From a virus: DNA of 47,030 nucleotides. The notes under the pieces were generated by a model. It was not told where the DNA came from. It made no database searches and saw only the letters and a program-made list of their open reading frames with translations. Of the stretch, positions 633-43,583 are shown one piece after another. The position numbers and the translations under genes are program-made. Every line of letters starts with the position of its first letter. Position 1 is the stretch's first letter. The stretch is from positions 1 to 47,030 of the IMG/VR virus record IMGVR_UViG_3300048839_001326; one strand, 5' to 3'.

Positions 633-642
633 AGTATTTATA
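633..642 (+). promoter_or_regulatory. Late-type motif AGTATTTATA
   Basis: A perfect copy of the motif found before most virion genes here, 40 bases before the ATG at 683. It is read in the direction of the gene. No Shine-Dalgarno sequence is visible; the leader is A-rich. Confidence 0.6.
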
Positions 643-682
643 AAAAAATGTAACTAAATTATAGGCATAAAAAAATATAAAA

Positions 683-3088
683 ATGAAGAAACATAATTCA
701 CAAGAAGCGTTTTACCAAAGGCTTCAGCAATTAGCAGAAGTAAAGAAACCCACAATAAAAGAATCTACTCGTAATTTGGGTACTTTAATAGATTACAAAA
801 GAGCAGCAGATGGAGTTGCTTATGGAATTGTGAAAGAAAATCACCAATATTTTGTTAAAAAGGGTGGTTTAAAACAAGACCCAAACGTATCTGATTTCGC
901 ATATATAGGTGGTTTAGAAAACATTACAAAACACCAATACAAATCATTGGCTGAAGCTGATAAACAAAGAAACATGTTGTTTCAAGTTATTAATGAGGCA
1001 GTCACATTGAAACCAAGTAAAACTGGCAGTAAAAAACAAAAACTTCATGAAGACAAAGCTGGTGAAGAAATTGAAATGGCTGCAAGTAAAGTAGGTGACT
1101 TGGAAGCTGCAACTGCTGCAACTGAAGTTCCTGCCGAACCAGAACCTGATTTTAGTGGAGAACCAATGGGTGATGAAGAAATGCCAGCAGAAATGGGTGG
1201 CGAAGAAATGCCTGTTGATGAACCTGCACCCGAAGGTGGTGAAGAATTACCTGCCGACATGGGTAGCGAAGAAGGTGGAGAAGAAATGCCAGCAGAAATG
1301 GGTGGCGAAGAAGAACCAGAAGGTGGAGAAGAAATGCCAGCAGAAATGGGTGGCGAAGAAGAACCAGAAGGTGGAGAAGGCGATGCTGCACCCGCAGAAG
1401 AAAAAGACCTTACCACAACCGAAATTGAAAAGGGTCTCGGTAAATTAACAAATAAAATCAGAAAAACAGAATTAGAACCTGCACAGGTTAAATCATATGT
1501 AAATTCATTTCTTACTGCATTTAAAGACAAGTTTGATGAAGTAGAAATTGAAGACAGAAAAGCAATGGCAGATAAAATTTTAAAGGTTGTTCCTGATGAA
1601 GATATCGAAGATATTGAAGTTGGTGATGATATGTCTGTTGACGAACCTGAAGAAGTTGAAGAAGCAAAATGTTCAGAATGTGGTAGCTTTGGAATGTACG
1701 CAGAATCACGTGGCTATACCAGAGAATCAATTATGGAATGTGGTGAAGAAGAAATGGCTAACTTGGTTAGTGGCTATGCAAACGCACATGGTGAAGGTCA
1801 GAATGATGGCGATTTCAAAGCAGTTGCATTGTTTATCACACCGGAAATCATGGATAAATTAAAAGGTGATTATGGACATGACGAATACGCAAGTCAATTA
1901 GAACCAATGGTTAACTCATTAAGTGAAGCAAGTGAGGAAGATAAAGCTGCACAAATTGATGAACTTTGGGGCGGTATGAAACAAGCATTTGGAAAAGTAG
2001 GTGGTGATATTAAAGCAGGTGCTCAGAAGGCAGGACAGGCTGTTGCAGGTGCTGCACAAAAAGTAGGTGGTGCTGTTGCGGGTGCTGCACAAAAGGCAGG
2101 ACAAGCAGTAGGACAATACGCTACTGACGTAAAACAAGCATATCATACAGGTGAAGTACCGGGGGAAATAAAAAAACTTGAAACCGTTGCTGCAAGTTTG
2201 GGTAAACAAATTGCTGCATTAAATACAAGATTAGAAAAAGCCGGAAAACAACCAGTTAATGTTAGAAGTATTTTAGCAACTATTCAAAATCAACTTGGAA
2301 GTAAAGCTGGTACTGCTAATTTAAGTAAATTTGCTGCAGAAGGTGTTGACCCGGCAGGTGTTGAAGTTCAACCAAATGCATTAATGGAAGACGGTGCTGA
2401 AGAAATTGACGATGAAGGTACGCCTGAAATCGGTTTCGCCCCAGATTCACAAACACTTGGTGTAGATACAGTTAAACCTGCAGGTGCTCCAACAACAGGA
2501 GTTGATGTAAATGTCGATGCTCAGAATAAAACTGTTAATGTTACAATGAGTGAATCAGAAAAAAAGATTAGAAAATACATTCGTGAACGTCTTGAAGTTA
2601 AAGCTGGTTTGAAAAAAGCAAGTCTTAACGAAGATAAAAAATCTGATACACTTAAAAGACTCGATAAAATAATTGACGAACAGTTTGGTCTATATGAATC
2701 TGTTGTGTCTAAAAAAAAAGATGAAGTTGTAGATGAAGGTATTACCGATTGGATGGGTAAAGCATCTCAATGGGCAGAAGGTAGATTAAAAAAACAAAAA
2801 GACTTAAAAGCAGTTTTACCTTCACTATCTGTTGAAGAGCCACACGAATTAAATCATTGGCTTAATAAAACATTTAAAATTGATTTCGAAGGTGGTATTG
2901 AAAGATATCTCTCAAGAACACCAGCAGAAAATAAATTAGTAATTCTACAACAAGCAGCAGCAGACCCAAGTGGTTTGGGTAAATTAAAGATTGGAAAAAA
3001 CAATTTTGTGGAATACATTCCAGTAGACCATAGTGAGGTTGGAGGACCAAGTGATTTTGCGAGAGGCAGAAGTAGATTAGGTACTTAA
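683..3088 (+). CDS. Large acidic repeat protein, probable virion or head-associated protein
   Basis: This 801-residue protein has several distinct regions. Residues 1-115 are a compact, probably folded N-terminus. Residues about 150-235 are a Glu/Gly/Pro/Met-rich low-complexity stretch built from GGEEMPAEM-type units. A segment near residue 333 has a CSEC pair followed by an acidic region. Residues about 435-480 are Ala/Gly-rich repeats (AQKAGQAV, AQKVGGAV) that resemble amphipathic apolipoprotein- or LEA-like helices. The C-terminus is folded and basic. The late-type motif upstream and the position ahead of terminase and portal suggest a virion or assembly protein, but I recognise no family. 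A rho-independent terminator follows the stop. Reverse-strand open frames across the repeat are artefacts of its composition. Confidence 0.6.
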   Translation: MKKHNSQEAFYQRLQQLAEVKKPTIKESTRNLGTLIDYKRAADGVAYGIVKENHQYFVKKGGLKQDPNVSDFAYIGGLENITKHQYKSLAEADKQRNMLFQVINEAVTLKPSKTGSKKQKLHEDKAGEEIEMAASKVGDLEAATAATEVPAEPEPDFSGEPMGDEEMPAEMGGEEMPVDEPAPEGGEELPADMGSEEGGEEMPAEMGGEEEPEGGEEMPAEMGGEEEPEGGEGDAAPAEEKDLTTTEIEKGLGKLTNKIRKTELEPAQVKSYVNSFLTAFKDKFDEVEIEDRKAMADKILKVVPDEDIEDIEVGDDMSVDEPEEVEEAKCSECGSFGMYAESRGYTRESIMECGEEEMANLVSGYANAHGEGQNDGDFKAVALFITPEIMDKLKGDYGHDEYASQLEPMVNSLSEASEEDKAAQIDELWGGMKQAFGKVGGDIKAGAQKAGQAVAGAAQKVGGAVAGAAQKAGQAVGQYATDVKQAYHTGEVPGEIKKLETVAASLGKQIAALNTRLEKAGKQPVNVRSILATIQNQLGSKAGTANLSKFAAEGVDPAGVEVQPNALMEDGAEEIDDEGTPEIGFAPDSQTLGVDTVKPAGAPTTGVDVNVDAQNKTVNVTMSESEKKIRKYIRERLEVKAGLKKASLNEDKKSDTLKRLDKIIDEQFGLYESVVSKKKDEVVDEGITDWMGKASQWAEGRLKKQKDLKAVLPSLSVEEPHELNHWLNKTFKIDFEGGIERYLSRTPAENKLVILQQAAADPSGLGKLKIGKNNFVEYIPVDHSEVGGPSDFARGRSRLGT
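1274..1379 (+). repeat. Perfect 48-bp in-frame tandem repeat
   Basis: Two exact 48-bp copies (1274-1321 and 1322-1369) and the start of a third lie inside the acidic-repeat gene. Each encodes 16 residues around GGEEMPAEMGGEEEPE. Degenerate copies lie upstream from about 1174. Base-level identity implies recent duplication or ongoing homogenisation, and a copy number that could vary between isolates. Confidence 0.9.
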
Positions 3089-3094
3089 AAAAAT

Positions 3095-3124
3095 AAAAAC
3101 CGGGCAAAAAAGTCCGGTTTTTTT
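3095..3124 (+). terminator. Rho-independent terminator
   Basis: A stem AAAAACCGG/CCGGTTTTT closes a short A-rich loop and runs into a T-tract directly after the stop at 3088. The T-tract also abuts the ECF-like promoter element that starts at 3125, so termination and new initiation sit next to each other. Confidence 0.85.
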
Positions 3125-3150
3125 GTAACATTTTTTTTCTCTTTACGTAT
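3125..3150 (+). promoter_or_regulatory. ECF-sigma-like promoter element, copy 1
   Basis: GTAAC (3125-3129) and CGTAT (3146-3150) are separated by 16 bases. GTAACATTTTT and TTACGTATAAG are each identical to the element at 32415-32440. The layout resembles group-IV (ECF) promoters of Bacteroidota (TGTAAC...CGTC/A). The ATG at 3159 lies only 8 bases downstream, so the transcript would be nearly leaderless. Confidence 0.5.
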
Positions 3151-3158
3151 AAGTCTTT

Positions 3159-3562: not shown

Positions 3563-3572
3563 AGTATTTATC
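3563..3572 (+). promoter_or_regulatory. Late-type motif AGTATTTATC
   Basis: A motif copy that ends 12 bases before the ATG at 3585, pointing with the gene. Confidence 0.5.
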
Positions 3573-3584: not shown

Positions 3585-4070
3585 ATGGAGAATGACGATA
3601 AAAAGTTAAAACTAATTTACGTAAATAAAATTGGTTATAACGCAAAAGGCGAAGGGTTGTTTGAATTTATTTTTTCATTTGACCCATCAAATATCGATAT
3701 TGAAGGTTGGTGTTGGGATATGTCTCCTGCTTGCGACAATGCAATGCCCCCAACAGAAGAATTCATCAATTCAATTTATAACTTAAAAACCAGCACATTT
3801 GATTTATTTTGTCTGCACGAAGCAGTAGATAGAGAATATATGCATGGTTATCACACAATTCATGCTTTAGCATACGAAATTCCACCACCAGAAGATGATA
3901 CTAATGGCTATAGTGATTATCAGAAAATGTTTGAAAATGAAGACGATGACACGCCATTATTAGTTTTCCACTACGGAATAACACTTGCAAAAATAAAAGA
4001 AATGTTGAACTCAAGAAAAATTATTGCAAAAGATAATGAATTTGTTGAGGTTTCTTCATTAAAAATATAG
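3585..4070 (+). CDS. Acidic hypothetical protein
   Basis: This 161-residue acidic protein has no signal or membrane segment. Its N-terminus has an alternating hydrophobic pattern (KLKLIYVNKIGYN, then GLFEFIFSFD) typical of beta strands. A cluster of Cys, Trp and Asp follows around residues 43-55, and an Asp/Glu-rich loop lies near 105-125. The late-type motif suggests late expression. Its TAG stop overlaps the next motif copy at 4069. No family recognised; placed directly before the packaging genes. Confidence 0.55.
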   Translation: MENDDKKLKLIYVNKIGYNAKGEGLFEFIFSFDPSNIDIEGWCWDMSPACDNAMPPTEEFINSIYNLKTSTFDLFCLHEAVDREYMHGYHTIHALAYEIPPPEDDTNGYSDYQKMFENEDDDTPLLVFHYGITLAKIKEMLNSRKIIAKDNEFVEVSSLKI

Positions 4071-4078
4071 TATTTATA
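4069..4078 (+). promoter_or_regulatory. Late-type motif AGTATTTATA before non-coding region
   Basis: A perfect motif copy overlapping the stop codon of the upstream gene. No gene follows until a second copy at 4247. It would drive the candidate non-coding RNA at about 4081-4240. Confidence 0.55.
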
Positions 4079-4246: not shown

Positions 4247-4256
4247 AGTATTTATT
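4247..4256 (+). promoter_or_regulatory. Late-type motif before terminase gene
   Basis: AGTATTTATT, ending 15 bases before the ATG at 4272 and directly downstream of the hairpin terminator. This restarts transcription for the packaging genes. Confidence 0.55.
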
Positions 4257-4271: not shown

Positions 4272-6323
4272 ATGAGTACTGATAAAGAAAAGGTTGAAAA
4301 GAAAGAAATCGAAGATATATTTCCAGAACACGTTCCAGTAATACCCATTGATGTTCAGAGGGAAAAAGAAAAGGAACAGATTAGGAAATTAGCTGCAGAA
4401 CTCAGAAAACAATCTGCTAAGATTGAACCAATTGTTGTTACTAAAGACGGTATTGCTAAGAGAGCCAGTGAATTAACAATCACAGAACAAAAGCAGGAAA
4501 TCATTAGGTGTGCAACAGACCCCGTATATTTTATTGAGACATATTTAACAATTTTTGACCAGACACAGGGTATGGCTGGTATGATTGTACCATTCAAACT
4601 TTTTGATTTTCAGAAAGAATTAATCCAAACATATCGAGATAATAGATTTGTGGTTGCCAACAAATATCGTCAGGCAGGTATATCCACGACAACTTGTGCA
4701 TATATAGCATGGTATGTGATGTTCAACCCGAACAGACAGGTTGCAATTGTTGCAGATAAACTTGAAACCGCACGTGATGAAATTATGAGTGATGTGGTTT
4801 TATTTATTGAAGGTTGCCCGGATTGGCTTAGACCAAAAACTGGTAGAGAAGCTGTTGGTAATTTCAAGGACACACAAAAATTAAAAATTTACGATAATAA
4901 TTCAAGATTAGGTGCTTTCTCTTCTAAAGGTCTTCGTGGTATGACACCAACACTTATTTTCTGGGACGAAACTGCATGGACAGAAAAGGGAGATAAATTC
5001 TGGACTGCAGCGAAACCAACACTTCAAACTGGTGGTGCTGCGATTATGGTTAGTACTCCTTCCGGTCTTGATGCAGTATTCTACAAAACATTTGATGGTG
5101 CACGAAGAAACGAAAATAACTTTAAAGCGGTTGAACTATGGTGGTATAATGACCCAAGATATAATAAAGATTTGTGCTGGTTGAAAAATAAAGGTAAAGA
5201 AAACGAAAAGAAATTAATTGACCAAAATTGGGATAAAAAAACCAGAATTCAAATGATGGAAGACGGTTGGGAAGCCAGCAGTCCTTGGTTTGAAGAACAA
5301 GTTAGAGATGCAAACGGAGATATGCGTAAAATTGCGCAAGAACTTTTATGTTCATTCTTGGGTTCTGGTGATAACTTTATCGCTGAAGAATATCTTAAAC
5401 GTATTCAGGAAAATGAAGTACGTACACCTATTCGTCAAGAATACACCGACTTAAATATGTGGATTTTTGAAGACCCATTACCGGGAGAAGATTACATTAT
5501 AGCACTCGATGCGTCTCCGGGACACGGTGATGACAATTCAACATTGAATATGTTGAAAACTGTTGAAGTAATTGAAGAAAAGGTTATTAAAAAGGGCGAT
5601 AAAATAAAAAAAGTTAAAATCAGAAGACATAAAGTTGAACAGGTTGCGGAATACTATGGAAAAGTAACACCACAAATGCTTGCAGAAATTGCATATCAAT
5701 ATGGAAAACGATATAATAATGCATATGCGGTTGTTGATATAACTGGTGGTTATGGTGTGCAAAGCGTGGAAAAATTACTTGAATTTGGGTACGATAGTGT
5801 TCACTTTGCAGAAGTTACACATAAACCTTCAAGAGATAGGTTACAAGGATATATTAAAAAGGGTCAGAAAACAATGGCAGATGGTTCTGTCGTAAATGTT
5901 GACCTGATTCCCGGATTCTTTATTGGAAATAACCGTGCTTCGGTGCTTCTTGAAATGCAAAGAGCAGTGCATTTGGAAGACGTGATTATTAGGTCAGTAA
6001 GATTATTGAATGAATTAAAAACATTCGTCACGATTCCCGGAAATCGTGTGGCTGACCATAAACGTAGTTTTCACGATGATAGTATAATGGGATTGTCAAT
6101 TGGATTATATGTTTTGAATTTTGATATGGCAAGATTTAAGCAAAGTAAGGGTGTTACTGAAAAAATGCTTAATGCCATCATTACCAATAACGATATTTCT
6201 GAAATAGGAAGAAAACAAGACATAAAAAATAAACCAATGATTTCCCCCAATAGTCCATCATCGATGAATCCATATCTTGCACATTCATGGTTATTTGATG
6301 GATTAGATAAGAAAAAGAAATAA
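4272..6323 (+). CDS. terL: Terminase large subunit (gp17-like)
   Basis: This is the ATP-driven motor and headful nuclease that packages DNA through the portal. At 683 residues it is somewhat longer than T4 gp17 (610). The ATPase domain shows a Walker A region at about 131-139 (KYRQAGIST), a Walker B strand TPTLIFWDE at about 225-233, and coupling motif MVSTPSG near 259-265. The RNase H-like nuclease domain starts near residue 405, with acidic residues at D413 (IIALDASPG), D489 (AVVDITGG) and D602/D603 (HDDSIMG). The Walker A lacks the usual GKT/S lysine, as in other deviant terminase motifs. The ATG is preceded by a late-type motif. The portal gene follows. No small terminase subunit was recognised nearby. 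Confidence 0.95.
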   Translation: MSTDKEKVEKKEIEDIFPEHVPVIPIDVQREKEKEQIRKLAAELRKQSAKIEPIVVTKDGIAKRASELTITEQKQEIIRCATDPVYFIETYLTIFDQTQGMAGMIVPFKLFDFQKELIQTYRDNRFVVANKYRQAGISTTTCAYIAWYVMFNPNRQVAIVADKLETARDEIMSDVVLFIEGCPDWLRPKTGREAVGNFKDTQKLKIYDNNSRLGAFSSKGLRGMTPTLIFWDETAWTEKGDKFWTAAKPTLQTGGAAIMVSTPSGLDAVFYKTFDGARRNENNFKAVELWWYNDPRYNKDLCWLKNKGKENEKKLIDQNWDKKTRIQMMEDGWEASSPWFEEQVRDANGDMRKIAQELLCSFLGSGDNFIAEEYLKRIQENEVRTPIRQEYTDLNMWIFEDPLPGEDYIIALDASPGHGDDNSTLNMLKTVEVIEEKVIKKGDKIKKVKIRRHKVEQVAEYYGKVTPQMLAEIAYQYGKRYNNAYAVVDITGGYGVQSVEKLLEFGYDSVHFAEVTHKPSRDRLQGYIKKGQKTMADGSVVNVDLIPGFFIGNNRASVLLEMQRAVHLEDVIIRSVRLLNELKTFVTIPGNRVADHKRSFHDDSIMGLSIGLYVLNFDMARFKQSKGVTEKMLNAIITNNDISEIGRKQDIKNKPMISPNSPSSMNPYLAHSWLFDGLDKKKK

Positions 6324-6328: not shown

Positions 6329-6338
6329 TGTATTTATA
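6329..6338 (+). promoter_or_regulatory. Late-type motif, distal copy before portal
   Basis: TGTATTTATA immediately after the terminase stop, the first of two copies before the portal gene. The 28 bases between the copies hold an 8-codon ATG...TAG frame and a small self-complementary segment (CTTTTCAAGAAAAG). Confidence 0.4.
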
Positions 6339-6366: not shown

Positions 6367-6376
6367 AGTATTTATA
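6367..6376 (+). promoter_or_regulatory. Late-type motif, proximal copy before portal
   Basis: A perfect AGTATTTATA, 23 bases before the ATG at 6400. Confidence 0.6.
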
Positions 6377-6399: not shown

Positions 6400-8406
6400 A
6401 TGGCTGAAAAGGAACAAAAAGGCACATTATATCAACAACTCAACAAAATGTTGAATTTGGATGGTTTTGGTTTTCAGGATTCACAACCTGCCGTATCACA
6501 ATCAACTCCAATAGCAAAACAACCAAAGGTTATTATAAAAGGTAATACTCCCGAAGAAATACATAGGAAGGGTTTGGAGTTAGAACAGAAGAAAGAACTT
6601 CAGAATAAATTCTTCAGGACAACCGATAGGGGTTTTCAAAAGGCATTACAATATGAAGCTGCCAGACTTCCAGCATATATCGACTATGAGGGTATGGAAT
6701 ATTACCCAATTATTTCTTCTGCATTGGATTTATTTATGGAAGAAGCAACCACCATTGGTTTAAATGGTAAAATGCTTAACATATATTCGAATAAGGAAAG
6801 GATTAAAACATTACTTGAAGAATTTTTCTTCGATACTGTTAACGTGAATGTAAACTTACCGTTCTGGGTAAGAAATCTTGTGAAATATGGTGATAATTTT
6901 GTATTACTCTATGGTGAACGTAAGAAAGGTATTACACACGTAAAACAATTGGTTAATTATGAAATTGAAAGACTCGAAAGAATACAAAACGGTAAACCAA
7001 TTGTGAAGTTTAAAGAAAGAATGACTGGTGACGAATTTAATACTTTCGAAATTGCTCACTTCAGACTTCTTGGAGATGATAAGTACTTGCCATATGGTTC
7101 ATCGGTTTTAAATAAAGTCAGAAGAGTTTTCCGTCAATTAGTAATGGCAGAAGACGCTATGCTTACCTACCGTATTATTCGTGCAGGTGAAAAGAAGGTT
7201 TTTAAAATTGACGTTGGAAACATAGATGAAGACGATATTGAGGATTATATTTACAAAGTTGCTACCAAGTTTAAAAAGATTGCACAGGTGTCTCCCACTG
7301 ATGGTCAAATTGATTACCGTTTCAATATATTGGGAAACGATGAAGATTATTTCCTACCCGTAAGAAACGCAAATACTCAAACAGGTATTGATACTTTAGC
7401 GGGTGCATCAAATCTCGACCAGATTCAAGATATTGAATATCTTAGAGATAATCTATTCATCGGACTTGGTATTCCAAAACCATTCTTGAGTTTTCAGGAT
7501 GCTGCAGGTGCTGGCAAAAACATGGCACAATATGATATCAGATTTGCAAAAAAGGTTAATCGTATTCAGCAAGCCATGATACAGGAACTCAATAAAATGG
7601 CAATGATACATTTATTCTTGTTGGGTTATAGTGGTGAGGACTTGAATAGTTTTACATTGACGCTTACAAATCCTTCTACACAACAGGAATTACTCAAATC
7701 AGAATTATTACGTGAGAAAGCACAAACATATACTGAATTAACACGTGCTGAAGGCGGTATTGCTGCAATGTCACATACAACTGCAAAACGTATGGTATTC
7801 AACATGAGTGACAGAGAAATTGTTGAAGACTTGAAACAACAGAAAATGGAAAAGGTTGTTATGCAAGAACTTGTTGATTCTCCAGTTACAATTAAGAAAT
7901 CCGGTTTATTTACCGACATTGATAAAAGATTCGGTGAGCCTGTTGAGGGTATGCCAGTTGCTGCAGATACGGGTGGAACAGAACAAGGTGGAATGCCACC
8001 TGAAGGTGGTGGAATGCCACCAGCACCACCAGCAGCAGGTGGAGAAATGCCACCTCCGGGAGCAGGAGCAGCACCATTAGGTGGTGGTGGAATGGGTGGT
8101 GGAGAAATGCCACCAGCATTAGCAGAAAGCAGTAAAATGACAGATGAAGAATATAGTAATCATGTAGAAAAAATGGTTTTTGGTTATAGTCAAGAACCAG
8201 AAAGAAAAAAGATTAGCAAACAGAAGAGAATTATCAATGAAAATAATCAAATCAACGATAAATTGAACCAAAATGCACAAAACATGATAAATGAAATCGA
8301 TGAATTACTAAAAAGTTCGGAAAGTATTAATGCAATTCAAAGAACAAACGAAGCAGAAGATATTGATTTCGAAACACTTGAATCCATTGATTTAGATGAA
8401 AACTAA
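6400..8406 (+). CDS. Portal protein (gp20-like)
   Basis: This forms the dodecameric ring at the unique head vertex, through which DNA is packaged and the tail attaches. At 668 residues it is longer than T4 gp20 (524). Its core matches the T4 portal pattern: an N-terminal segment with AARLPAYIDYEGMEYYPIIS, then a region with LPYGSSVLNKVRR and DAMLTYRIIRAGEKKVFKIDVGN, then LGIPKPFLSF. Residues about 522-577 are a Gly/Pro/Met-rich linker with GGEMPP-type units, followed by an acidic helical tail. That extra C-terminus accounts for most of the added length and echoes the GGEEMP repeats of the 683-3088 protein. It lies directly after terminase, a common packaging-module order. Confidence 0.92.
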   Translation: MAEKEQKGTLYQQLNKMLNLDGFGFQDSQPAVSQSTPIAKQPKVIIKGNTPEEIHRKGLELEQKKELQNKFFRTTDRGFQKALQYEAARLPAYIDYEGMEYYPIISSALDLFMEEATTIGLNGKMLNIYSNKERIKTLLEEFFFDTVNVNVNLPFWVRNLVKYGDNFVLLYGERKKGITHVKQLVNYEIERLERIQNGKPIVKFKERMTGDEFNTFEIAHFRLLGDDKYLPYGSSVLNKVRRVFRQLVMAEDAMLTYRIIRAGEKKVFKIDVGNIDEDDIEDYIYKVATKFKKIAQVSPTDGQIDYRFNILGNDEDYFLPVRNANTQTGIDTLAGASNLDQIQDIEYLRDNLFIGLGIPKPFLSFQDAAGAGKNMAQYDIRFAKKVNRIQQAMIQELNKMAMIHLFLLGYSGEDLNSFTLTLTNPSTQQELLKSELLREKAQTYTELTRAEGGIAAMSHTTAKRMVFNMSDREIVEDLKQQKMEKVVMQELVDSPVTIKKSGLFTDIDKRFGEPVEGMPVAADTGGTEQGGMPPEGGGMPPAPPAAGGEMPPPGAGAAPLGGGGMGGGEMPPALAESSKMTDEEYSNHVEKMVFGYSQEPERKKISKQKRIINENNQINDKLNQNAQNMINEIDELLKSSESINAIQRTNEAEDIDFETLESIDLDEN

Positions 8407-8453: not shown

Positions 8454-8463
8454 AGTATTTATA
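8454..8463 (+). promoter_or_regulatory. Late-type motif AGTATTTATA
   Basis: A perfect motif ending 19 bases before the ATG at 8483. Confidence 0.6.
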
Positions 8464-8482: not shown

Positions 8483-9262
8483 ATGAAAAATTTCAACATA
8501 GGAATTGCTAATTTGATAATTTCAAACAAATTAAAAGATTCTTATTTTAATAGTAGTTTAATTGAGGAATCGAAAAAGTTAACTGTTGATTTTTTCGATG
8601 TAGTAAAGGAATCTCCAATTCTACAGTTAGAGTTTAAGGTTTTTAACAACATCGAAAACAAACACATAGATAACGAATTGGTTGCTACCAGATATATTGA
8701 TAATAATATCAAGTTATTTGAAGTGTACACCATTGAAGAAATCGATGCTGAACGTGAGAAGTTAAATGCGTTTATTAGTGAGGAAAATCTTCCGGTTGAG
8801 GATAATAGGGTTCAATTATACACTGCAATTGACAGATTAATTACAGAATCATTAAATGACTACGATAAAATCGATGTTGATGCAATTCACGAATCATTTA
8901 GTTTTGTTCTAAATCATGTAAGAACTGCTAAGAAAAATTTAATCGAGAACGTTGATGTTGAACCAATAAATGAAGACGTTATTGAGATAGCGATTGATAA
9001 ATTTAACGAAAAATATAATTCATTAAATGAAGATGACAAAAATCTACTTCACACTTTAATTAAATCAAACAATAAAGAAAAAGAGGAATTACTTGAAGCA
9101 TATAAGAACGAGAGCCTCAGTATTTTAGAAGGATTAAATAAAGAAAGTGTTAAAGACAGTATAACGAAAGCAATTGAGAAGATTAAGGAAATGGTGTATA
9201 AAGAAGATAAAGTAGACGAGGACATAATCTCACTACATGAACTGAAAAAAGAATTACTTTAA
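8483..9262 (+). CDS. Acidic helical protein, possible prohead core or virion protein
   Basis: This 259-residue protein is acidic, Lys/Glu/Asn-rich and predicted mostly helical, with coiled-coil-like charge patterning after residue 165. It lacks signal and membrane segments. In T4 the genes between portal and prohead protease encode small prohead core proteins (gp67, gp68). This gene holds the equivalent position right after the portal, although the baseplate block at 9284-14763 now separates it from the protease. Sequence alone does not show homology to those proteins. It has its own late-type motif and shares a bidirectional terminator with the convergent hydrolase gene. Confidence 0.55.
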   Translation: MKNFNIGIANLIISNKLKDSYFNSSLIEESKKLTVDFFDVVKESPILQLEFKVFNNIENKHIDNELVATRYIDNNIKLFEVYTIEEIDAEREKLNAFISEENLPVEDNRVQLYTAIDRLITESLNDYDKIDVDAIHESFSFVLNHVRTAKKNLIENVDVEPINEDVIEIAIDKFNEKYNSLNEDDKNLLHTLIKSNNKEKEELLEAYKNESLSILEGLNKESVKDSITKAIEKIKEMVYKEDKVDEDIISLHELKKELL

Positions 9263-14778: not shown

Positions 14779-14788
14779 TATAAATACC
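14779..14788 (-). promoter_or_regulatory. Late-type motif GGTATTTATA, minus strand
   Basis: Read on the minus strand, it ends 15 bases before the hub candidate's ATG at 14763. It is divergent from the plus-strand variant at 14835. Confidence 0.55.
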
Positions 14789-14834: not shown

Positions 14835-14844
14835 ACTATTTATT
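14835..14844 (+). promoter_or_regulatory. Late-type motif variant ACTATTTATT
   Basis: The G at motif position 2 is replaced by C, as it is before the prohead protease gene. It ends 14 bases before the ATG at 14859. Confidence 0.4.
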
Positions 14845-15512: not shown

Positions 15513-15522
15513 ACTATTTATA
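15513..15522 (+). promoter_or_regulatory. Late-type motif variant ACTATTTATA
   Basis: The C-variant of the motif, ending 14 bases before the protease ATG at 15537. Confidence 0.45.
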
Positions 15523-16319: not shown

Positions 16320-16329
16320 TGTATTTATA
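16320..16329 (+). promoter_or_regulatory. Late-type motif TGTATTTATA
   Basis: Ends 36 bases before the scaffold ATG at 16366. No motif occurs before the capsid gene, so scaffold and capsid probably share this start. Confidence 0.5.
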
Positions 16330-25928: not shown

Positions 25929-25938
25929 CATAAATACT
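25929..25938 (-). promoter_or_regulatory. Late-type motif AGTATTTATG, minus strand
   Basis: Ends 14 bases before the GIY-YIG ATG at 25914. It separates the endonuclease from the early-type nucleotide-metabolism unit upstream. Confidence 0.5.
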
Positions 25939-29163: not shown

Positions 29164-29173
29164 AGTATTTATA
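29164..29173 (+). promoter_or_regulatory. Late-type motif AGTATTTATA
   Basis: Ends 14 bases before the ATG at 29188 and lies one base from the divergent early promoter, so the two cannot easily be occupied at once. Confidence 0.6.
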
Positions 29174-32381: not shown

Positions 32382-32391
32382 TATAAATACC
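32382..32391 (-). promoter_or_regulatory. Late-type motif GGTATTTATA, minus strand
   Basis: Read on the minus strand, only four bases before the ATG at 32377, the closest spacing in the window. A conventional -10 box here would imply a leaderless transcript. Confidence 0.45.
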
Positions 32392-32414
32392 TTCAAAAAT
32401 TTTTATGATTTTTT

Positions 32415-32440
32415 GTAACATTTTTAAATACATTACGTAT
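32415..32440 (+). promoter_or_regulatory. ECF-sigma-like promoter element, copy 2
   Basis: GTAAC (32415-32419), 16 bases, CGTAT (32436-32440). It shares GTAACATTTTT and TTACGTATAAG with the element at 3125-3150, with divergent sequence between. It precedes the lipoprotein ATG by 42 bases. Confidence 0.55.
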
Positions 32441-32482
32441 AAGCGTGTAGCAAACAAAAATGTTTAACTAAAATTTGAAATT

Positions 32483-32982: not shown

Positions 32983-35091
32983 TTAAACAAGTCCTAATAA
33001 ATATAAATAATCAATACAATCCGCAGTATCAAAACCTTTGTAAAAGTAGGTATTTGGGTCTTGTGTACTAACATCGGCATCACCATTTAATCTTCCACCC
33101 TTTAAAGGACAGGCTGCAGTCCAACCCGATGGTATATATTTACCATTACGATATTTACCTTTAAGTGTATAACCCGGTATAGAATTTCCATTTGTTCCTG
33201 TACCTTTAAACCCTTTTGGCATATTCTTTAATTCAGGAAGGTCTTCTTTTGGCACATGAATAAAGTCAGTCCAGTGCAAGTCGGAACGTGCCATGAATTT
33301 AGTGTTGAAGTCATTACCTGCAATTATCTGACTATTATCCCCAAAGAAATGTGTGCTTTTAAAATCATGAGTGAAATTGGTATTTGAACGCCAATTTTCT
33401 ACATATGAATATCCGTTCGATAAAAATGCTACCTGTGGTAAATGTATTGCAAAATTTAACCAGTTTGCACCAAAAAGTTGTTGTGTTGAATATGTTGTAT
33501 TATAAACCATTCCATACTGTGTGTTACCAGTAACATCAACATCATTGGTTTGAATAATTCCAACATCCCAATTTGTATCTCTATCCTTTGGGTCATTTAT
33601 TGCGTCCCTGTTTGAAAACGCATTATTTGTGTGGTCATCAAAATCATTATTTTCGTTTTCATTATTATGCGCATTATATACAACACCATGAAATCTTGAA
33701 ACACTATAAAAACCACCGCCAGAAAATGTATAGTGTTGTTTTCTCCATGTTTGAACATCTGCTTGTGATTGTGAGTCACGGTTGTCTCTTCTGAGTCCTC
33801 GACCTTCAGAAGCAAATTGTGGAAATTTAAATTTATATCTAATTGGTCTTAATGTGGTACTACTACCTAAATCTCCGGTGAAATTCATGGGTATATCATC
33901 AACAGTTGCTTCTAATGTCATAAAACCTTTAAACTTAGTATAAACACCTGTGGAAGAATTTTCATCTACAGGTGTTTCATTACCAAATTCATCAGTAATA
34001 ACCCTACCTCTATTACAATTAATAATAAAAACAAAATCACCATCTCTTTTATATGCAGAATATTGCGTTGGGTCTAAAAGTAACATATCTGTTTTAGGGT
34101 CGGCAGTACTTATTTCACTATCATTTATGGAAGCGGGATAGTAATAAATTTTTTCTGTAACAATTCCGATTCTTTTCGATACCATTCCTTTATTTTCACT
34201 GGTATTACTTCTAAGTTTATATAACTCTCTAATTGTTCTACCATCTTCATTATTAGCACCCCACATTGAATTATCACCATCTGTGAAAATACTACCAAAA
34301 ATTGTAAATGTATTTGATAATACTGACCTAATTCTGAAATCCTGACGAGTAATACCTATTTCAAAATTTTCAACATCACCCCAAAACGGTATGATATCAA
34401 CACTAATTTCTTGTGTTTCAATGTGTGGTAGGTCACCTAAGTCATTACTTGGTTTAATTTTACTGCCACCATCAGTAAATAGGTTTGGTGAATAGCCTAA
34501 GTTTGTTACCATAGCTGCTGGTGTCATGCTATATTTACCAATATCGGTAATATCAACACTAAGGTGAACAGTTTGTGTACCAATTGGAACACCGAATATC
34601 ATGTAATCACCAGCATCATTTGTGGTAGCAGTATATTTATAGTATTTTTTATAAACATTTAAAAACGGTTCATTTGTTACAATTTCTTCTTTGATTGGAA
34701 AACTGCCAAATGGTTGTTTAGGTTTTACTTCTTGTGTGGCAGGATTTTTTTTACCTACCCTTGGTAATAAATTATATCGTTTTCCCTCTATATTCTTGTC
34801 TCTGGGAGTCTTATAGGGGTATATACTGTATATCTCACCATTCTCAGCATCATCGTCTGTAAGGGGCATAAAAATGCTTATTTTGGCATTTGGGATACCT
34901 ATACCACCATTTGCTATAACTCTACCCACCAAAACACCATAATCAGCATTAAAATCCTGATAAACATCTTTGGTATCGATGCTCATGCTTAAAAATTCAA
35001 GACTGTCTGTTTCTTGTTCGAGTTTTATTTTAATGTGATTATCTACATCAAGAGAATTAACATCCAAATAAATTCGTTGTGACCTATTCAT
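32983..35091 (-). CDS. Tail/baseplate structural protein with carboxypeptidase-regulatory-like Ig domain
   Basis: This 702-residue protein contains a CarboxypepD_reg-like beta-sandwich at about residues 50-185. It starts VLVGRVIANGGIGIPNAKISIFMP (two blocks) and ends TTNDAGDYMIFGVPIGTQTVHLSV. The gap between is filled by a longer insert with Pro/Lys-rich sequence. The remaining 500 residues are Asn/Asp/Thr-rich and mainly beta. Such Ig-like domains are common in phage tail and surface proteins of Bacteroidota phages. No enzyme motif is seen. The late-type motif 14 bases before its ATG supports a virion role. Exact position in the tail is unknown. Confidence 0.6.
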   Translation of the reverse strand: MNRSQRIYLDVNSLDVDNHIKIKLEQETDSLEFLSMSIDTKDVYQDFNADYGVLVGRVIANGGIGIPNAKISIFMPLTDDDAENGEIYSIYPYKTPRDKNIEGKRYNLLPRVGKKNPATQEVKPKQPFGSFPIKEEIVTNEPFLNVYKKYYKYTATTNDAGDYMIFGVPIGTQTVHLSVDITDIGKYSMTPAAMVTNLGYSPNLFTDGGSKIKPSNDLGDLPHIETQEISVDIIPFWGDVENFEIGITRQDFRIRSVLSNTFTIFGSIFTDGDNSMWGANNEDGRTIRELYKLRSNTSENKGMVSKRIGIVTEKIYYYPASINDSEISTADPKTDMLLLDPTQYSAYKRDGDFVFIINCNRGRVITDEFGNETPVDENSSTGVYTKFKGFMTLEATVDDIPMNFTGDLGSSTTLRPIRYKFKFPQFASEGRGLRRDNRDSQSQADVQTWRKQHYTFSGGGFYSVSRFHGVVYNAHNNENENNDFDDHTNNAFSNRDAINDPKDRDTNWDVGIIQTNDVDVTGNTQYGMVYNTTYSTQQLFGANWLNFAIHLPQVAFLSNGYSYVENWRSNTNFTHDFKSTHFFGDNSQIIAGNDFNTKFMARSDLHWTDFIHVPKEDLPELKNMPKGFKGTGTNGNSIPGYTLKGKYRNGKYIPSGWTAACPLKGGRLNGDADVSTQDPNTYFYKGFDTADCIDYLYLLGLV

Positions 35092-35105: not shown

Positions 35106-35115
35106 CATAAATACT
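35106..35115 (-). promoter_or_regulatory. Late-type motif AGTATTTATG, minus strand
   Basis: Ends 14 bases before the ATG at 35091, divergent from the sheath gene's motif at 35320. Confidence 0.55.
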
Positions 35116-35319: not shown

Positions 35320-35329
35320 AGTATTTATT
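35320..35329 (+). promoter_or_regulatory. Late-type motif before tail sheath gene
   Basis: AGTATTTATT, 61 bases before the ATG at 35391, the longest leader of the set. GTATTTAT is flanked by TTTTTCA and TGAAAAA, so it sits in the loop of a 7-bp inverted repeat. Confidence 0.5.
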
Positions 35330-35390: not shown

Positions 35391-38114
35391 ATGGCAGAAT
35401 TCGTATTTACCTCTCCGGGAGTAAAATTTAGAGAACGTGACTTGACATTTGTAACACGTAATGTTGGTGTAACCACTTTAGGTCTTGTAGGCGAGACATT
35501 AAAAGGTCCGGCATTCGAACCCGTTTTTATTCAAGATAAAACACAGTTCGCTCAAAGGTTTGGTGCACAGAACACAAAAAGATTTTCAAATGGAAATCTA
35601 CAATATCAATTACCATATGTAGCAAATGCATACTTAGAAGAATCAAATCAATTATGGGTAACCAGAGTATTGGGTTTGAGCGGATATGATGCAGGAACTG
35701 CATGGGCGATTACCTTAAACGCTGGCGTTGACCCAGAAACCACAGGTGCAACTACTACTGTAATTACAAATACTGGAGTACCTTTTACTGATGGTTACTA
35801 TTTAGGTGTTGCGTTAAATGCAACCGGGGACACTGGCTCTTATTTCAGTGGATTCACAAAAGTAAGTGCAACAGAATTTGAAGGTTATTTACATGAGTTC
35901 ACTGCAACAACCAAAACTACAACTGGTGGAACAGTAACTGATAAAGTAACTTTATTGTCTGGTACATCATATACAGAATATGAAGGTATGGTACTTGCAG
36001 TTTTAAGAAGTAGAGGTTATGTTCAAGACCAAGTGAATGCAACTCCAAAGACTGTTTTTGAAACCACAAGTCTTACAATGACTGGTAATACAACTAATAT
36101 AAGTACTGGTGATTTGTTTGGTCAATTTACATTAATTGCATCAAGTACTGCAAGCACTGAAACATATGTTGCTACATTGAATCCGAATTCAAGTAGCTTC
36201 TTACCAAATGTTGTGGGTTATGAACCAAAAGACAAAAATACAAAAATTTGGGTTGAAGCTATTTATGCCGATTTAATTAAAAAATTGGATGCTGATGGTA
36301 TTGCATATGGAATAAACACAACAATACTTAACTGTACTGATGATGTATTTACCAACTACAGACCTGCTGGTGGTAGTGCTGCATTCAGAACACCTGAAAC
36401 TCCTTGGATTGTATCACAATTAAAAGGTAGCAGTGTTGACAGATTATTCAAATTCATCAGCATTTCTGATGGTGATGCTGCAAACCAAGAAATTAAAATC
36501 AGTATTGTAAATATTAACCCAATTACATTGGAATTTGATGTTGTTGTTCGTGACTTTAACGATACTGACGACAGCGTAAGAATTCTTGAAACATTCTCAA
36601 GATGTAATTTAACAGTTGGTACTACTGGTTACATTGCACAGCGTATCGGTACTTCTGATGGCGAATATGACCTTCAGAGCAGATATATTATGGTTGAATT
36701 GGCTGGTGAGATTGAACCCGGTGTATTCCCTGCAGGTTTTGAGGGTTACAATTTTAAAGACTTCTCAGATTTTAGTGGTGTAACACCAAAAATCTACTAC
36801 AAAACCAAATATGATGATGATGAAAGAGCAAGAAAAATTTATCTTGGTATTTCTGAACATGGTTATGATGCAGACGACAATAGTTTACTTGGTTCAGGAG
36901 TAAACCAGAACTTCTTTAACTTCAATGGTTATGGTGGTTTTGTTAACAGCAAAGGATTCCACATGGATAGCGGTGCTACCGGAACATATAATGACTTCGA
37001 ATTTGAAGTAGGTGCTGGTAGATTTAGAACAGTCGAAGATGTTGTTGACCCAGAAAATCCATATTTTGAAACGGTAACAAGAAAATTCACTTTTGTACCT
37101 GCTGGTGGTTTTGATGGTTGGGATGTTCACAGAACAAGTCGTTCTTATGGTGACCTTTATCGTCTAAATGGAATTTATGATGGTGTTGTTCCTAACGGAA
37201 ACCCAAGAAATGACTTCCAAGCATGGGAAACAGGTATTAATACTTTCGCAAACCCAGAAGAAGTTACAATCAACTTATTTGCAACTCCCGGTATTAACTG
37301 GAGTGACCAGAATATCTTGGTTCAGAACACAATTGAAATGCTTGAACAGGAAAGAACCGATACTTTATATATAATCGATTCTCCTGATAGTAATATTCAG
37401 CAAATCATTGGTGAAACCAAATCTGATGTTGTTGCTGCACAGGATATCGTAGAATTGCTTGACACAGCAGAAATCGATAGTAGCTACGCATGTACTTACT
37501 TCCCTTGGATTCAAATGCGTGACACCCAGAATAACGTTAATGTTTATCTTCCACCAACAGGTGAGGTAGTGAAAGCGATGGCGTTTACTGATAACACAAA
37601 ATTCCCTTGGTTTGCACCTGCTGGTTTAACTCGTGGTGTAACTGCTGCAAGAAAATCTAAATATAAATTAAGTCTTGACGCTCGTGATATTCTTTACTCA
37701 GGTAGAATTAATCCATTGGCTGACTTTGCAGATGCAGGAACAGCAATTTTCGGACAAAAAACTTTACAGGTTAAAGAAAGTGCGCTTAACAGAATTAACG
37801 TTCGTAGACTTTTACTTCAAATTAAAGTTCTTATCGCTAATATCGCAATCAGACTTGTGTTTGAACAAAATGACCAAGCAACTATTGACCAATTCTTACA
37901 AAAAGCAACTCCGGTTCTCGACACAATTAAAAGAGAAAGAGGTTTACAGGAGTTCAGAATCAAAATGGACGATAGTAACAATTCACCAGAAAGTCGTGAC
38001 AGAAACGAATTATACGGTGAAATATTCTTGAAGCCAACACGTGCTCTCGAATTTATTGGAATCACGTTTACAATTACACCTTCTGGAGCAAGTTTCGCAG
38101 ACGTAGGTGCATAA
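35391..38114 (+). CDS. Tail sheath protein (gp18-like)
   Basis: This is the contractile sheath subunit. The N-terminus FTSPGVKFRERDLT and VTTLGLVGETLKGPAFEPVFI (two blocks, to residue 50) are typical of gp18/sheath proteins. The C-terminal third contains the conserved core: NVYLPPTGEVVKAMA, then KFPWFAPAGLTRG, DARDILYSGRINPLADF, GTAIFGQKTLQ, INVRRLLLQIKVLI and a terminal LEFIGITFTITPSG. At 907 residues it exceeds T4 gp18 (659). The extra length lies in variable beta-rich surface domains at about 110-560. It is followed by a terminator and then the tube gene, the T4 order 18-19 with one small gene inserted. Confidence 0.95.
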   Translation: MAEFVFTSPGVKFRERDLTFVTRNVGVTTLGLVGETLKGPAFEPVFIQDKTQFAQRFGAQNTKRFSNGNLQYQLPYVANAYLEESNQLWVTRVLGLSGYDAGTAWAITLNAGVDPETTGATTTVITNTGVPFTDGYYLGVALNATGDTGSYFSGFTKVSATEFEGYLHEFTATTKTTTGGTVTDKVTLLSGTSYTEYEGMVLAVLRSRGYVQDQVNATPKTVFETTSLTMTGNTTNISTGDLFGQFTLIASSTASTETYVATLNPNSSSFLPNVVGYEPKDKNTKIWVEAIYADLIKKLDADGIAYGINTTILNCTDDVFTNYRPAGGSAAFRTPETPWIVSQLKGSSVDRLFKFISISDGDAANQEIKISIVNINPITLEFDVVVRDFNDTDDSVRILETFSRCNLTVGTTGYIAQRIGTSDGEYDLQSRYIMVELAGEIEPGVFPAGFEGYNFKDFSDFSGVTPKIYYKTKYDDDERARKIYLGISEHGYDADDNSLLGSGVNQNFFNFNGYGGFVNSKGFHMDSGATGTYNDFEFEVGAGRFRTVEDVVDPENPYFETVTRKFTFVPAGGFDGWDVHRTSRSYGDLYRLNGIYDGVVPNGNPRNDFQAWETGINTFANPEEVTINLFATPGINWSDQNILVQNTIEMLEQERTDTLYIIDSPDSNIQQIIGETKSDVVAAQDIVELLDTAEIDSSYACTYFPWIQMRDTQNNVNVYLPPTGEVVKAMAFTDNTKFPWFAPAGLTRGVTAARKSKYKLSLDARDILYSGRINPLADFADAGTAIFGQKTLQVKESALNRINVRRLLLQIKVLIANIAIRLVFEQNDQATIDQFLQKATPVLDTIKRERGLQEFRIKMDDSNNSPESRDRNELYGEIFLKPTRALEFIGITFTITPSGASFADVGA

Positions 38115-38168: not shown

Positions 38169-38178
38169 AGTATTTATG
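38169..38178 (+). promoter_or_regulatory. Late-type motif AGTATTTATG
   Basis: Ends 32 bases before the ATG at 38211; the upstream TTTATTTATG at 38159 is a weaker look-alike. Confidence 0.5.
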
Positions 38179-38610: not shown

Positions 38611-38620
38611 AGTATTTATT
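38611..38620 (+). promoter_or_regulatory. Late-type motif AGTATTTATT
   Basis: Ends 36 bases before the tail tube ATG at 38657. Confidence 0.55.
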
Positions 38621-38656: not shown

Positions 38657-39148
38657 ATGGCAGGAGAAATGATTAGGGGTATCCCATTCGAATACGAACC
38701 AAAACGTGCAAACAGATTCTTCGCAGAATTTGCAGATGAATTAGGCGTTGAAGTCTGGAAAGTTCAGAAATTCAAAAGACCTTCAATGAAAATTAATAAG
38801 GTTGAAATTGACTACATGAACGAGAAAAACTATGTCGCAGGTAGATATACTTGGGATTCGATGTCAATTACATTCCTTGACCCAATCGGTCCTTCAACAT
38901 CACAACAACTCATGGAATGGGTTCGTTTACATGCTGAATCACTTACAGGTCGTATGGGTTACGCAGCAGGATACAAGAAAAATATTCTGTTGAAATCGTT
39001 AGACCCAACGGGAGTTGAAGTTGAAAAATGGTTCTTGGAGCAATGTATGATTACATCAATTGACTTTGGAGAAAATGATTATGGTAATGATGAATTAACA
39101 AACATCACACTTGAAATCCAGCCTTGGAGATGTATTCTCAATCTTTAA
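38657..39148 (+). CDS. Tail tube protein (gp19-like)
   Basis: This forms the stacked hexameric rings of the inner tail tube. At 163 residues it equals T4 gp19 in length. Family features are an N-terminal basic segment (EYEPKRANRFFAEF), VQKFKRPSMKINKVEIDYMN in the middle, TWDSMSITFLDPIGPS, and a C-terminal beta pair (CMITSIDFGENDY, then TNITLEIQPWRC). It lies downstream of the sheath gene as expected and is followed by a terminator. Confidence 0.93.
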   Translation: MAGEMIRGIPFEYEPKRANRFFAEFADELGVEVWKVQKFKRPSMKINKVEIDYMNEKNYVAGRYTWDSMSITFLDPIGPSTSQQLMEWVRLHAESLTGRMGYAAGYKKNILLKSLDPTGVEVEKWFLEQCMITSIDFGENDYGNDELTNITLEIQPWRCILNL

Positions 39149-41507: not shown

Positions 41508-41508
41508 A

Positions 41509-41850: not shown

Positions 41851-41853
41851 AAT

Positions 41854-43158: not shown

Positions 43159-43161
43159 ATT

Positions 43162-43551
43162 TTATTGGTTTTTTTCTTTGTTCTTTTTTTCGAGTTCTTT
43201 TTGTACAAAATCAAGAAGTTCATTTCTATCATCAGACGAAACCTGTCCTTCCTCTTCTTTTTTCTGTTGAAAACCACCGCCCGTATTTGCTTTGTTCTCA
43301 AATACCACTTCTTTCAGATATTTAAGTAACATGATTTTCTGGTCTTGGTTCTTGGCTTCAGCAGCAATAAGTTTTACTATCTGGTCGCCAATCGCTGCAA
43401 TCTCACCACCTTCTTTAACCTTTTGTTCCCATTTGGTAAATAGTCTGGTAATTTTTGCTTTTTGATTATGACTTTCATCATAAATTTCCTGAAGAAGTTT
43501 ATTTACACTTTCTTCATCGAACTTTAATTTTTTTCTCTGAGGTCTTGGCAT
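43162..43551 (-). CDS. Charged helical protein, first gene of baseplate unit
   Basis: This 129-residue protein is very rich in Lys, Glu and Gln and predicted helical throughout, with a Gly-rich turn near 93-97 and a Lys/Glu tail. It begins MPRPQRKKLKFDEESVNK. A late-type motif lies 22 bases before its ATG and drives the following five genes. Assembly chaperone or small structural component are both possible; no family recognised. Confidence 0.55.
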   Translation of the reverse strand: MPRPQRKKLKFDEESVNKLLQEIYDESHNQKAKITRLFTKWEQKVKEGGEIAAIGDQIVKLIAAEAKNQDQKIMLLKYLKEVVFENKANTGGGFQQKKEEEGQVSSDDRNELLDFVQKELEKKNKEKNQ

Positions 43552-43573
43552 AATAATTTATAGTTTTAGTACA

Positions 43574-43583
43574 TATAAATACT
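43574..43583 (-). promoter_or_regulatory. Late-type motif AGTATTTATA, minus strand
   Basis: A perfect motif heading the 43551-40007 baseplate unit. Confidence 0.6.

Follow-up and report, generated by a model that had tools for sequence, protein, structure and literature searches.

What reads a short, directional element that stands before many of the virion genes of an uncultured phage? The question is raised by a stretch of 47,030 bases from a virus (IMG/VR record IMGVR_UViG_3300048839_001326; hereafter the window, meaning this whole stretch), in which a ten-base box, AGTATTTATA or a close variant, recurs on the coding strand. A sequence-only reading of the window had listed 21 copies and proposed that they mark nearly every virion transcription unit, either as a phage-specific late promoter unlike that of T4 or as a T4-like box in unexpected orientation. 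The phage is a T4-superfamily myovirus, and we consider it probable (roughly 0.72) that the box is a -10-type late promoter element of T4-related jumbo phages. A phage sigma factor would direct the core RNA polymerase (RNAP) of the host to it, the best candidate being the product of the minus-strand gene at 43599-44354. Together, the box and its plausible cognate sigma factor would form a variant of the late-gene strategy known from T4.

The pattern ASTATTTAT occurs 18 times in the window (14 copies on the plus strand and four on the minus strand), against a mean of 2.66 and a maximum of seven in 100 dinucleotide shuffles, and AGTATTTATA with at most one mismatch occurs 31 times, where 10.1 copies are expected and the richest shuffle holds 18; the comparison with shuffled sequence that had been proposed alongside the claim thus speaks for it. 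The looser pattern [ACGT][GC]TATTTAT is found 26 times. Five of these copies lie inside genes (16176+, 32915+, 36258+, 30874-, 20560-), read in the sense of their gene and were missing from the earlier list. The other 21 are intergenic, in DNA that amounts to 2,765 bases (5.9%) according to a list of 49 genes made by hand from a mechanical table of open reading frames (ORFs). They are exactly the copies that had been listed, each at the position given for it, and all of them point along the following gene, as had been claimed. A start on the same strand lies within 120 nucleotides (nt) for 20 of the 21, the exception being the copy at 4069, whose next start is 203 nt away.

More specifically, the box precedes 18 of the 27 genes with an upstream gap of at least 40 nt, as compared with one of the 22 genes with a smaller gap (Fisher p 6e-6); it marks the heads of transcription units. 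Two copies (19655 and 38169) come directly after hairpins that resemble terminators when judged by eye, and back-to-back pairs occupy the divergent gaps at 14779/14835 and 35106/35320. Within 60 nt upstream, [ATG][GC]TATTTAT is found in the forward orientation before 17 of 52 window genes and as its reverse complement before none. The distance from box to start codon spans 14-71 nt, and the gap between the ten-base motif and the start 4 to 61 nt; the spacing of 12-19 bases described earlier as frequent applies to ten of 20 copies, the remainder being scattered over this wider range. The phrase 'nearly every virion transcription unit' is a fair description, with the addition that one non-virion gene, for a GIY-YIG homing endonuclease (25183-25914), is boxed too.

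The box is conserved well beyond the window. The head protein encoded in the window is 70-100% identical to those of IMG/VR loci (80 retained of 151), several of which sit on records of 299-365 kb, and is about 33% identical to its counterparts in Microcystis phage Mel-JY01 and Flavobacterium phage immuto. Leaving out one identical locus (L009), 79 loci (1.39 Mb) were searched, and three relatives of 299-365 kb (G003, G007 and G001) were taken whole; simple ORF calling in these gave 1,355 upstream regions. Across the 79 loci, ASTATTTAT is found 159 times upstream of a gene and along it, 19 times upstream in the opposite sense, 138 times between starts on both sides, 35 times elsewhere in intergenic DNA (10.5% of the sequence) and 90 times in genes; these counts are not independent, because the loci are homologous. 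Each of 17 relatives contains 13-45 copies of the form ASTATTTATNNNAAA (0-10 for a reversed-pattern control); immuto contains four, Mel-JY01 one (control two), and T4, LR756508 and LR756511 none. Within 60 nt upstream, [ATG][GC]TATTTAT and its reverse complement precede 78 and 11 of 449 genes in G003, 56 and 8 of 397 in G007, and 71 and 12 of 509 in G001. When 8-mers upstream of genes in these three relatives are counted without any seed, GTATTTAT ranks first, with 206 copies as against 33 reversed; the equal use of orientations and locations that had been named as a finding contrary to the claim is not what is seen. A logo derived by expectation-maximization (EM) seeded with GTATTTAT reads [AC]GTATTTATANNAAA, with about 399 expected sites (350 of them confident) and T-rich stretches upstream; when the G of GTATTTAT is counted as position 1, position 13 is an A in 87% of the sites and position 14 in 79%.

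The core of the box, TATTTATA, is the reverse complement of the T4 late box TATAAATA, which explains why an inverted T4 box could be suspected. However, TATAAATA is almost palindromic, and TATTTATA agrees with it at 6 of 8 positions in the same orientation, so the inversion is mostly an illusion and was set aside. Upstream of genes, TATTTATA outnumbers TATAAATA by 11 to 1 in the window (52 genes), 63 to 19 in G003 (449 genes), 47 to 10 and 59 to 17 in the other two whole relatives, and 24 to 6 in immuto. The notion of a T4-like box in unexpected orientation is therefore unneeded, whereas that of a phage-specific late promoter unlike T4's draws good support from placement, orientation, gene class, conservation and the presence of a candidate sigma factor. 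It appears highly doubtful that the T4 box is truly turned round, with a late sigma factor on the host core RNAP reading a T4-type TATAAATAC on the template strand in a switch like that of phage AR9: the AR9 RNA polymerase is described as recognising its late promoter via the template strand (PMC9209446, accessible text), and template-strand recognition finds no support in the present analysis.

Which genes carry the box was examined in phages whose genes were named through the annotated immuto genome (matches of at least 24 bits to hand-labelled genes), the box being sought within 110 nt upstream. It precedes the genes for tail sheath, tail tube and the homologue of immuto 133684 in four of four phages, those for portal and a gp25-like baseplate protein in three of three, terminase in three of three (one of its two ORFs in G003), protease in three of four and baseplate hub in two of three, with a variant in one. 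It is absent within the same distance from DnaB, RecA, 5'-3' exonuclease and primase genes (0/3 each; all three primase genes have an early-type site), and likewise from ThyA (0/4), PhoH (0/2), NadR (0/3, with one variant and one early-type site), WecE (0/1), the sigma-like gene itself (0/4) and one unlabelled gene of the structural region (0/1). In G007, the 20 longest proteins with a box within 80 nt (of 77) were grouped by hand as five virion, none of DNA/RNA metabolism, two transposase, one glycosyltransferase and 12 unnamed; the 20 longest without a box within 110 nt (of 328) comprise four virion, seven of DNA/RNA metabolism (one of these best matched by a DNA methyltransferase family), one RIIA and eight unnamed. 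Virion and metabolism genes are thus unevenly divided between the two samples (Fisher p 0.034).

Some of these genes in the relatives have peculiarities of their own. The two G007 transposase genes (phrog_506; L133:1022-2359 and L126:4428-5720) share largely the same upstream DNA, ACTATTTATAAAAG included, so a late box of its own may travel with the mobile element. Protease ORFs of 639-642 amino acids (aa), as against 233-239 aa, and a terminase in two ORFs occur in G003 (216 and 226-229 kb) and G007 (297 kb), which suggests inteins or inserts in virion genes.

Other genes are preceded by other promoter-like motifs. In the relatives, 51 upstream regions contain TGTAACAT (11 in reverse), with CGTA exactly 22 nt further on in 44 of the 51; the bipartite motif TGTAACATT + CGTATAA, present in the window at 3124-3152 and 32414-32442, looks like a middle promoter class. 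A host-like pattern, TTG-N17-20-TAHHTTTG, has forward and reverse counts of 23/3, 19/5 and 30/6 in the three whole relatives and 2/1 in the window, and in its strict form 0/3 among 215 regions of immuto. The classes nearly exclude one another: the late box and the TGTAACATT type co-occur in one of the 1,355 regions (about 11 expected if independent), and the late box and TAnATTTG in five, all in G003 (about 15 expected). From gene content, the three sets would be late, middle and early classes. When TGTAACATT or TATATTTG served as the seed, EM runs absorbed every sequence and gave no subset, so these two motifs rest on counts; the run on immuto drifted to the early promoter TATATTTAGGTAT. Before many small immuto genes (NC_055915.1, mainly 60-76 kb) there is a long conserved early-type promoter, AGTTG ... 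TATATTTAGGTATCAATAATTAAAA.

Shine-Dalgarno sites are rare, being found before 2 of 52 genes in the window, 9 of 449 in G003, 17 of 397 in G007 and 16 of 509 in G001, as compared with 14 of 38 in a piece of T4. Because of this rarity, of an early class with the sigma A consensus and of the fact that immuto infects Flavobacterium, the host is likely to belong to the Bacteroidota. The -7 element of Flavobacterium johnsoniae is described as T-12 A-11 H H T-8 T-7 T-6 G-5, with AT-rich DNA near -18 and -28 (PMC6847099, accessible text). With the TA of the box set at -12/-11, T-rich stretches fall near -17 and -27 and the A-rich stretch at the start site, but the box logo does not show TAnnTTTG at -12 to -5; that sequence belongs to the early-like class.

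The candidate reader is a protein of 251 aa homologous to immuto gp118. Its gene is found in 16 of 17 relatives (four of the 16 being part of the search profile), and the family extends to immuto (also in the profile), Mel-JY01 and LR756508 at expect values (E) of at most 1.5e-25. Direct sequence comparison with T4 gp55 says little: gp118 matches the gp55 family phrog_234 weakly (E 0.008 for one genome, 0.5 against the library), phrog_234 is not among the matches listed for the window protein, a direct comparison of the window sigma profile with gp55 gave nothing, and in a PDB sequence search the sigma alignment picked up, by chance, an envelope protein of no relation (three matches, E at least 0.41). 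When 627 chains pre-ranked by Foldseek were realigned to the predicted structure with VIA-align, every one of the best 50 rows was a sigma entry or an RNAP holoenzyme with sigma (the sigma chain being recognised from title and chain letter). The region 2 of sigmaE (4lup_A) aligns with Z 8.9 and a root-mean-square deviation (rmsd) of 2.5 Å over 91 of 91 residues, and T4 gp55 (7d7c_F) with Z 9.0 and rmsd 5.4 Å over 121 of 137 residues. Helical folds can reach middling VIA-align Z values by chance; the N-terminal half is nevertheless predicted to have the sigma region 2 fold, which is accepted here because the list is uniformly sigma and region 2 is covered in full. The C-terminal half, modelled alone (predicted local distance difference test, pLDDT, 84.3; predicted template modelling score, pTM, 0.76) and compared with a view to the region 4 helix-turn-helix of ECF-type two-domain sigma factors, finds unrelated proteins as its best rows (Z at most 5.0) and one sigma70 row at Z 4.1. 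At the C-terminal end, where gp55 has its clamp-binding epitope, the gp55 consensus has LDFLYE and the window protein IGYLDD.

Two bridges connect this family to gp55. An LR756511 protein matches phrog_234 at 7.4e-8, and a profile of the 251-aa family to which immuto, Mel-JY01 and LR756508 contribute picks it up too, at 8e-6 for 40,000 sequences; once LR756511 is included, the profile meets 17 gp55 sequences at E 0.035 to 200 (T4 0.12), as compared with at least 290 for reversed controls. The other bridge comes from three short gp55-like proteins, whose joint profile finds the 251-aa gene in G013, G005, G007 and G001 (E 2e-4 to 0.006) and T4 gp55 at 0.016. The candidate in the window is probably remote kin of T4 gp55. 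The short proteins themselves (108-114 aa; G007:C1:98362-98703, G003:C1:23376-23702 and G001:C1:279585-279923) were the first candidates for the reader and were passed over: a profile search finds them in three of 17 relatives and not in the window, and the 251-aa family is preferred because it is conserved. A phage core enzyme was also sought, and the RNAP beta' domain PF04997 gave no match in 13 records (12 relatives and immuto) while all 14 control genomes did, in a search that may miss divergent phage enzymes. In several relatives (L171, L174, L175, L176, L190, L193, L199 and L208) the match to the sigma-like gene spans 1,019-1,114 nt as against about 750, which suggests an insert; in L211 and similar loci some 40 residues are inserted after the KFNP stretch of the sigma-like protein.

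Does the box follow the sigma factor across phages? In immuto the form is mainly [AG]CTATTTAT, with 13 forward and one reverse copy among 215 regions, before portal, tape measure and further genes, some of them not late by annotation. In Mel-JY01, TATTTAT precedes 12 of 71 late-region genes (four reversed) and 9 of 162 others (12 reversed), with p 0.011, which is a hint only, as the late region was drawn from annotation after some of the sites had been seen. The host of Mel-JY01, Microcystis, is not a member of the Bacteroidota, and 17 of 42 genes in one piece of this phage have Shine-Dalgarno sites; the phage sigma, rather than the host, may set the box. The late pattern precedes none of 56 genes in LR756508 and one of 66 in LR756511 (41-kb stretches), though LR756508 has the sigma family.

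Under the proposed mechanism, early genes would be transcribed from host-type promoters (TTG ... TAnnTTTG) and a further set from TGTAACATT ... CGTATAA. Once the phage sigma is made, it would direct the host core RNAP to the late boxes, and the virion genes would be transcribed. In the full late promoter, [A/C][G/C]TATTTATA would be preceded by a weak C/T-rich stretch at a distance of some 17 to 11 nt and followed, after two unconstrained bases, by a start region rich in A; the start codon would most often lie 22-30 nt from the motif.

Several observations weigh against this reading. As regards the sigma factor, the window protein matches phrog_1740 (RNA polymerase sigma factor) only at E 0.0017; Pfam Sigma70_r2 is found weakly in 14 of 37 family members (best 0.0034), as compared with 29 of 37 for the unrelated Pfam ZW10_C2 (best 2.4e-5); hhalign gives the family and gp55 a probability of 0.4% and 1.2%; and the matches listed for a gp55 profile include no member of the clade (LR756511 E 1.3, immuto 14, LR756508 30). 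The structure model, built with 37 relatives, reaches pLDDT 71.6 and pTM 0.40, and its best Foldseek match, sigma32, has E 0.47. The short proteins match phrog_234 better than the window protein does (G001 0.0027, G003 7.5e-6, G007 5.6e-9). As regards the box, a second promoter element is weak: the upstream C/T element, which appeared strong in the homologous loci, amounts to 49 of 239 sites that have a C at -17 (p 4e-7), with 6 of 19 in the window, and is not relied upon because it is weak in the whole relatives. As regards gene class, neither the major head protein genes (0/4) nor the baseplate wedge genes (0/3), all of them downstream genes, have a box within 110 nt; in G003 the wedge ORF is preceded by a site of the TGTAACATT type, and the G001 protease gene has an early-type site and no late box. 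Conversely, boxes precede some non-virion genes, namely NrdA (G003), an HNH gene (G001), one of three metallophosphoesterase genes and, in G007, the two transposase genes and one glycosyltransferase gene.

These points bear on the alternatives to different degrees. The box could be a promoter read by another factor, be it an alternative sigma factor of the host, sigma A with a phage co-factor, or the short gp55-like protein. The register of T-12 A-11 with AT-rich DNA near -18/-28 is indeed that of F. johnsoniae host promoters (PMC6847099, accessible text), and the window sigma draws little direct backing from sequence, where the short protein of G001, G003 and G007 does better. Yet the box departs from TAHHTTTG at -7 and -5 and, going by their description in the accessible text of PMC9723704, from the F. 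psychrophilum motifs SM1-3, SM5 and SM6. The short protein occurs in three of 17 relatives (fragments may hide genes), as against 17 of 17 for the box and 16 of 17 for the 251-aa family, and in the Microcystis phage Mel-JY01, which shares the sigma family, TATTTAT is enriched upstream of genes in the late region as drawn after some sites had been seen (12/71 versus 9/162). Another reader is on balance unlikely.

That AGUAUUUAUA acts in the RNA leader, aiding translation initiation or marking processing in messengers devoid of Shine-Dalgarno sites, would suit both the near-absence of such sites and the proximity of the box to start codons. It is very improbable when set against the near-confinement of the box to genes with long gaps (18/27 versus 1/22), a distance to the start that varies from 14 to 71 nt, the lack of boxes before named replication genes that need translation just as much, the near-exclusion of the other promoter-like motif and the position of boxes after terminator-like hairpins and in divergent gaps. 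An operator for a phage regulator, with the true promoter elsewhere, is equally improbable, as the start-proximal position and the fixed A-rich stretch fit a -10 element and the logos hold no second element of similar strength. Finally, the window has a GC content of only 30-39% (in 2-kb steps), which might invite an AT-rich compositional artefact; the shuffle, reversed-pattern and reverse-complement controls refute it, and its probability is negligible.

The coordinates of the boxes and of the named genes are collected below. The late-boxed GIY-YIG gene adjoins the thymidylate synthase gene and is reminiscent of T4, which has late-expressed homing endonucleases. A pair of boxes similar to that before the portal gene (69 and 33 nt) is found at the same place in G001 and G003. 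tRNAs with anticodon CUA (called Pyl) occur in two relatives (L114:8386-8463 and L119:1380-1453), and for this reason recoding of TAG was examined; it was rejected, since TAG serves as an ordinary stop, closing 3 of 52 ORFs in the window and 18 of 459, 34 of 409 and 29 of 512 in relatives.

Table 1. Boxes and named genes in the window, in order of position
Feature	Sequence	Position	Strand	Remark
Late box	AGTATTTATA	633-642	+	Upstream of 683-3088
Late box	AGTATTTATC	3563-3572	+	Upstream of 3585-4070
Box	AGTATTTATA	4069-4078	+	Nearest downstream start called at 4272, over 120 nt away
Late box	AGTATTTATT	4247-4256	+	Upstream of large terminase gene
Large terminase		4272-6323	+	PHROG scan
Box	TGTATTTATA	6329-6338	+	Outer of two before portal gene, 71 nt (inner 33 nt)
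Late box	AGTATTTATA	6367-6376	+	Upstream of portal gene
Portal		6400-8406	+	PHROG scan
Late box		8454-8463	+	Upstream of 8483-9262
Late box	GGTATTTATA	14779-14788	-	Upstream of 10237-14763(-); divergent from 14835(+)
Late box	ACTATTTATT	14835-14844	+	Upstream of 14859-15338
Late box	ACTATTTATA	15513-15522	+	Upstream of head protease gene
Head protease		15537-16238	+	PHROG scan
Box	TGTATTTATA	16320-16329	+	Upstream of 16366-17922, the gene preceding the major head protein gene
gp23-type major head protein		17944-19599	+	PHROG scan
Late box	AGTATTTATT	19655-19664	+	After terminator-like hairpin (by eye); upstream of 19672/19681
DNA helicase		20421-21908	-	PHROG scan
Late box		22427-22436	+	Upstream of 22455-23573
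GIY-YIG homing endonuclease		25183-25914	-	PHROG scan
Box	AGTATTTATG	25929-25938	-	Upstream of GIY-YIG homing endonuclease gene
Thymidylate synthase		25966-27024	-	PHROG scan
Late box		29164-29173	+	Upstream of 29188-29952 (immuto 133684 homologue; boxed in 4/4 phages)
Box	GGTATTTATA	32382-32391	-	Upstream of 30728-32377(-)
Box	AGTATTTATG	35106-35115	-	Upstream of 32983-35091(-); divergent from 35320(+)
Late box	AGTATTTATT	35320-35329	+	Upstream of tail sheath gene
Tail sheath		35391-38114	+	PHROG scan
Late box	AGTATTTATG	38169-38178	+	After terminator-like hairpin (by eye); upstream of ATG 38199
Late box	AGTATTTATT	38611-38620	+	Upstream of tail tube gene
Tail tube		38657-39148	+	Named via annotated immuto genome
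Late box	AGTATTTATA	43574-43583	-	Upstream of 43162-43551(-), the gene following the sigma-like gene
Predicted late sigma factor, 251 aa		43599-44354	-	Predicted sigma region 2 fold, model residues 13-120; C-terminal half helical

If the proposed reading is right, it would (i) give an uncultured clade of jumbo phages a readable transcription plan, in which promoter-like motifs fall into three classes that rarely co-occur and a putative late sigma factor is encoded beside genes that it would control, (ii) make late and early genes distinguishable by sequence in metagenomes and (iii) offer a test of the joint change of gp55-type sigma factors and their boxes.

Among known systems, the late promoter of the AR9 non-virion RNAP likewise belongs to a jumbo phage, but there a phage RNAP recognises the template strand (PMC9209446, accessible text), whereas no RNAP beta' match was found in the 12 relatives and immuto. 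The Bacteroidota sigma A promoter (-33 TTTG / -7 TAnnTTTG; PMC6847099, accessible text) has the register T-12 A-11 and the AT-rich DNA near -18/-28 in common with the box, which reads TATTTATA where the host has TAHHTTTG, with A rather than T and G at -7 and -5. Jumbo phage group 2, as described in the accessible text of PMC7824862, resembles these phages in three traits on which the likeness rests, namely a gp23-type head protein, a phage sigma factor (here a predicted one) and the lack of an RNAP (here as judged by PF04997), group 2 having further traits such as a family B DNA polymerase; this box and sigma family are not described in that text, nor is the box in such phages in the titles and abstract openings covered by the literature search, subscription journals lying mostly outside its scope.

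The closest comparison is with the T4 late promoter and its factors gp55, gp33 and gp45. There, an 8-bp TATA box lies about one turn upstream of the start, without conservation at -35 (PMC2988020, accessible text). The two systems share a lone, short box rich in AT, placed roughly one helical turn before the start and with AT-rich DNA downstream, as well as late genes in both directions and, in the present case as proposed, a phage sigma acting on the core RNAP of the host (PMC2988020 and PMC7892883, accessible text), and in both the box stands before late virion genes and along them. The differences are the box itself, [AC][GC]TATTTATA rather than the TATAAATA consensus on the non-template strand, a possible, weak C/T-rich upstream element here, and a candidate sigma factor that is only remotely similar to gp55 and extends about 110 residues further at the C-terminus. 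T4 late promoters are activated by the sliding clamp gp45 together with gp33. Among 16 records, the T4-type clamp phrog_223 matches T4 itself and has a weak partial match in G012 (E 0.0013), and was not found in 11 of 12 relatives, immuto, LR756508 or Mel-JY01; such a miss does not amount to absence, because Mel-JY01 is annotated with a clamp loader. The late promoter of Aeromonas phage Aeh1 (a/gC at -13/-12) has a purine followed by C ahead of TA, which recalls the A[GC]TA of the present box; Aeh1 departs from the T4 consensus only at these two positions (PMC2988020, accessible text), whereas here TTTATA follows A[GC]TA. Taken together, TATTTATA seems to go with the 251-aa sigma family in Bacteroidota phages, and more weakly in the Microcystis phage, as TATAAATA goes with gp55.

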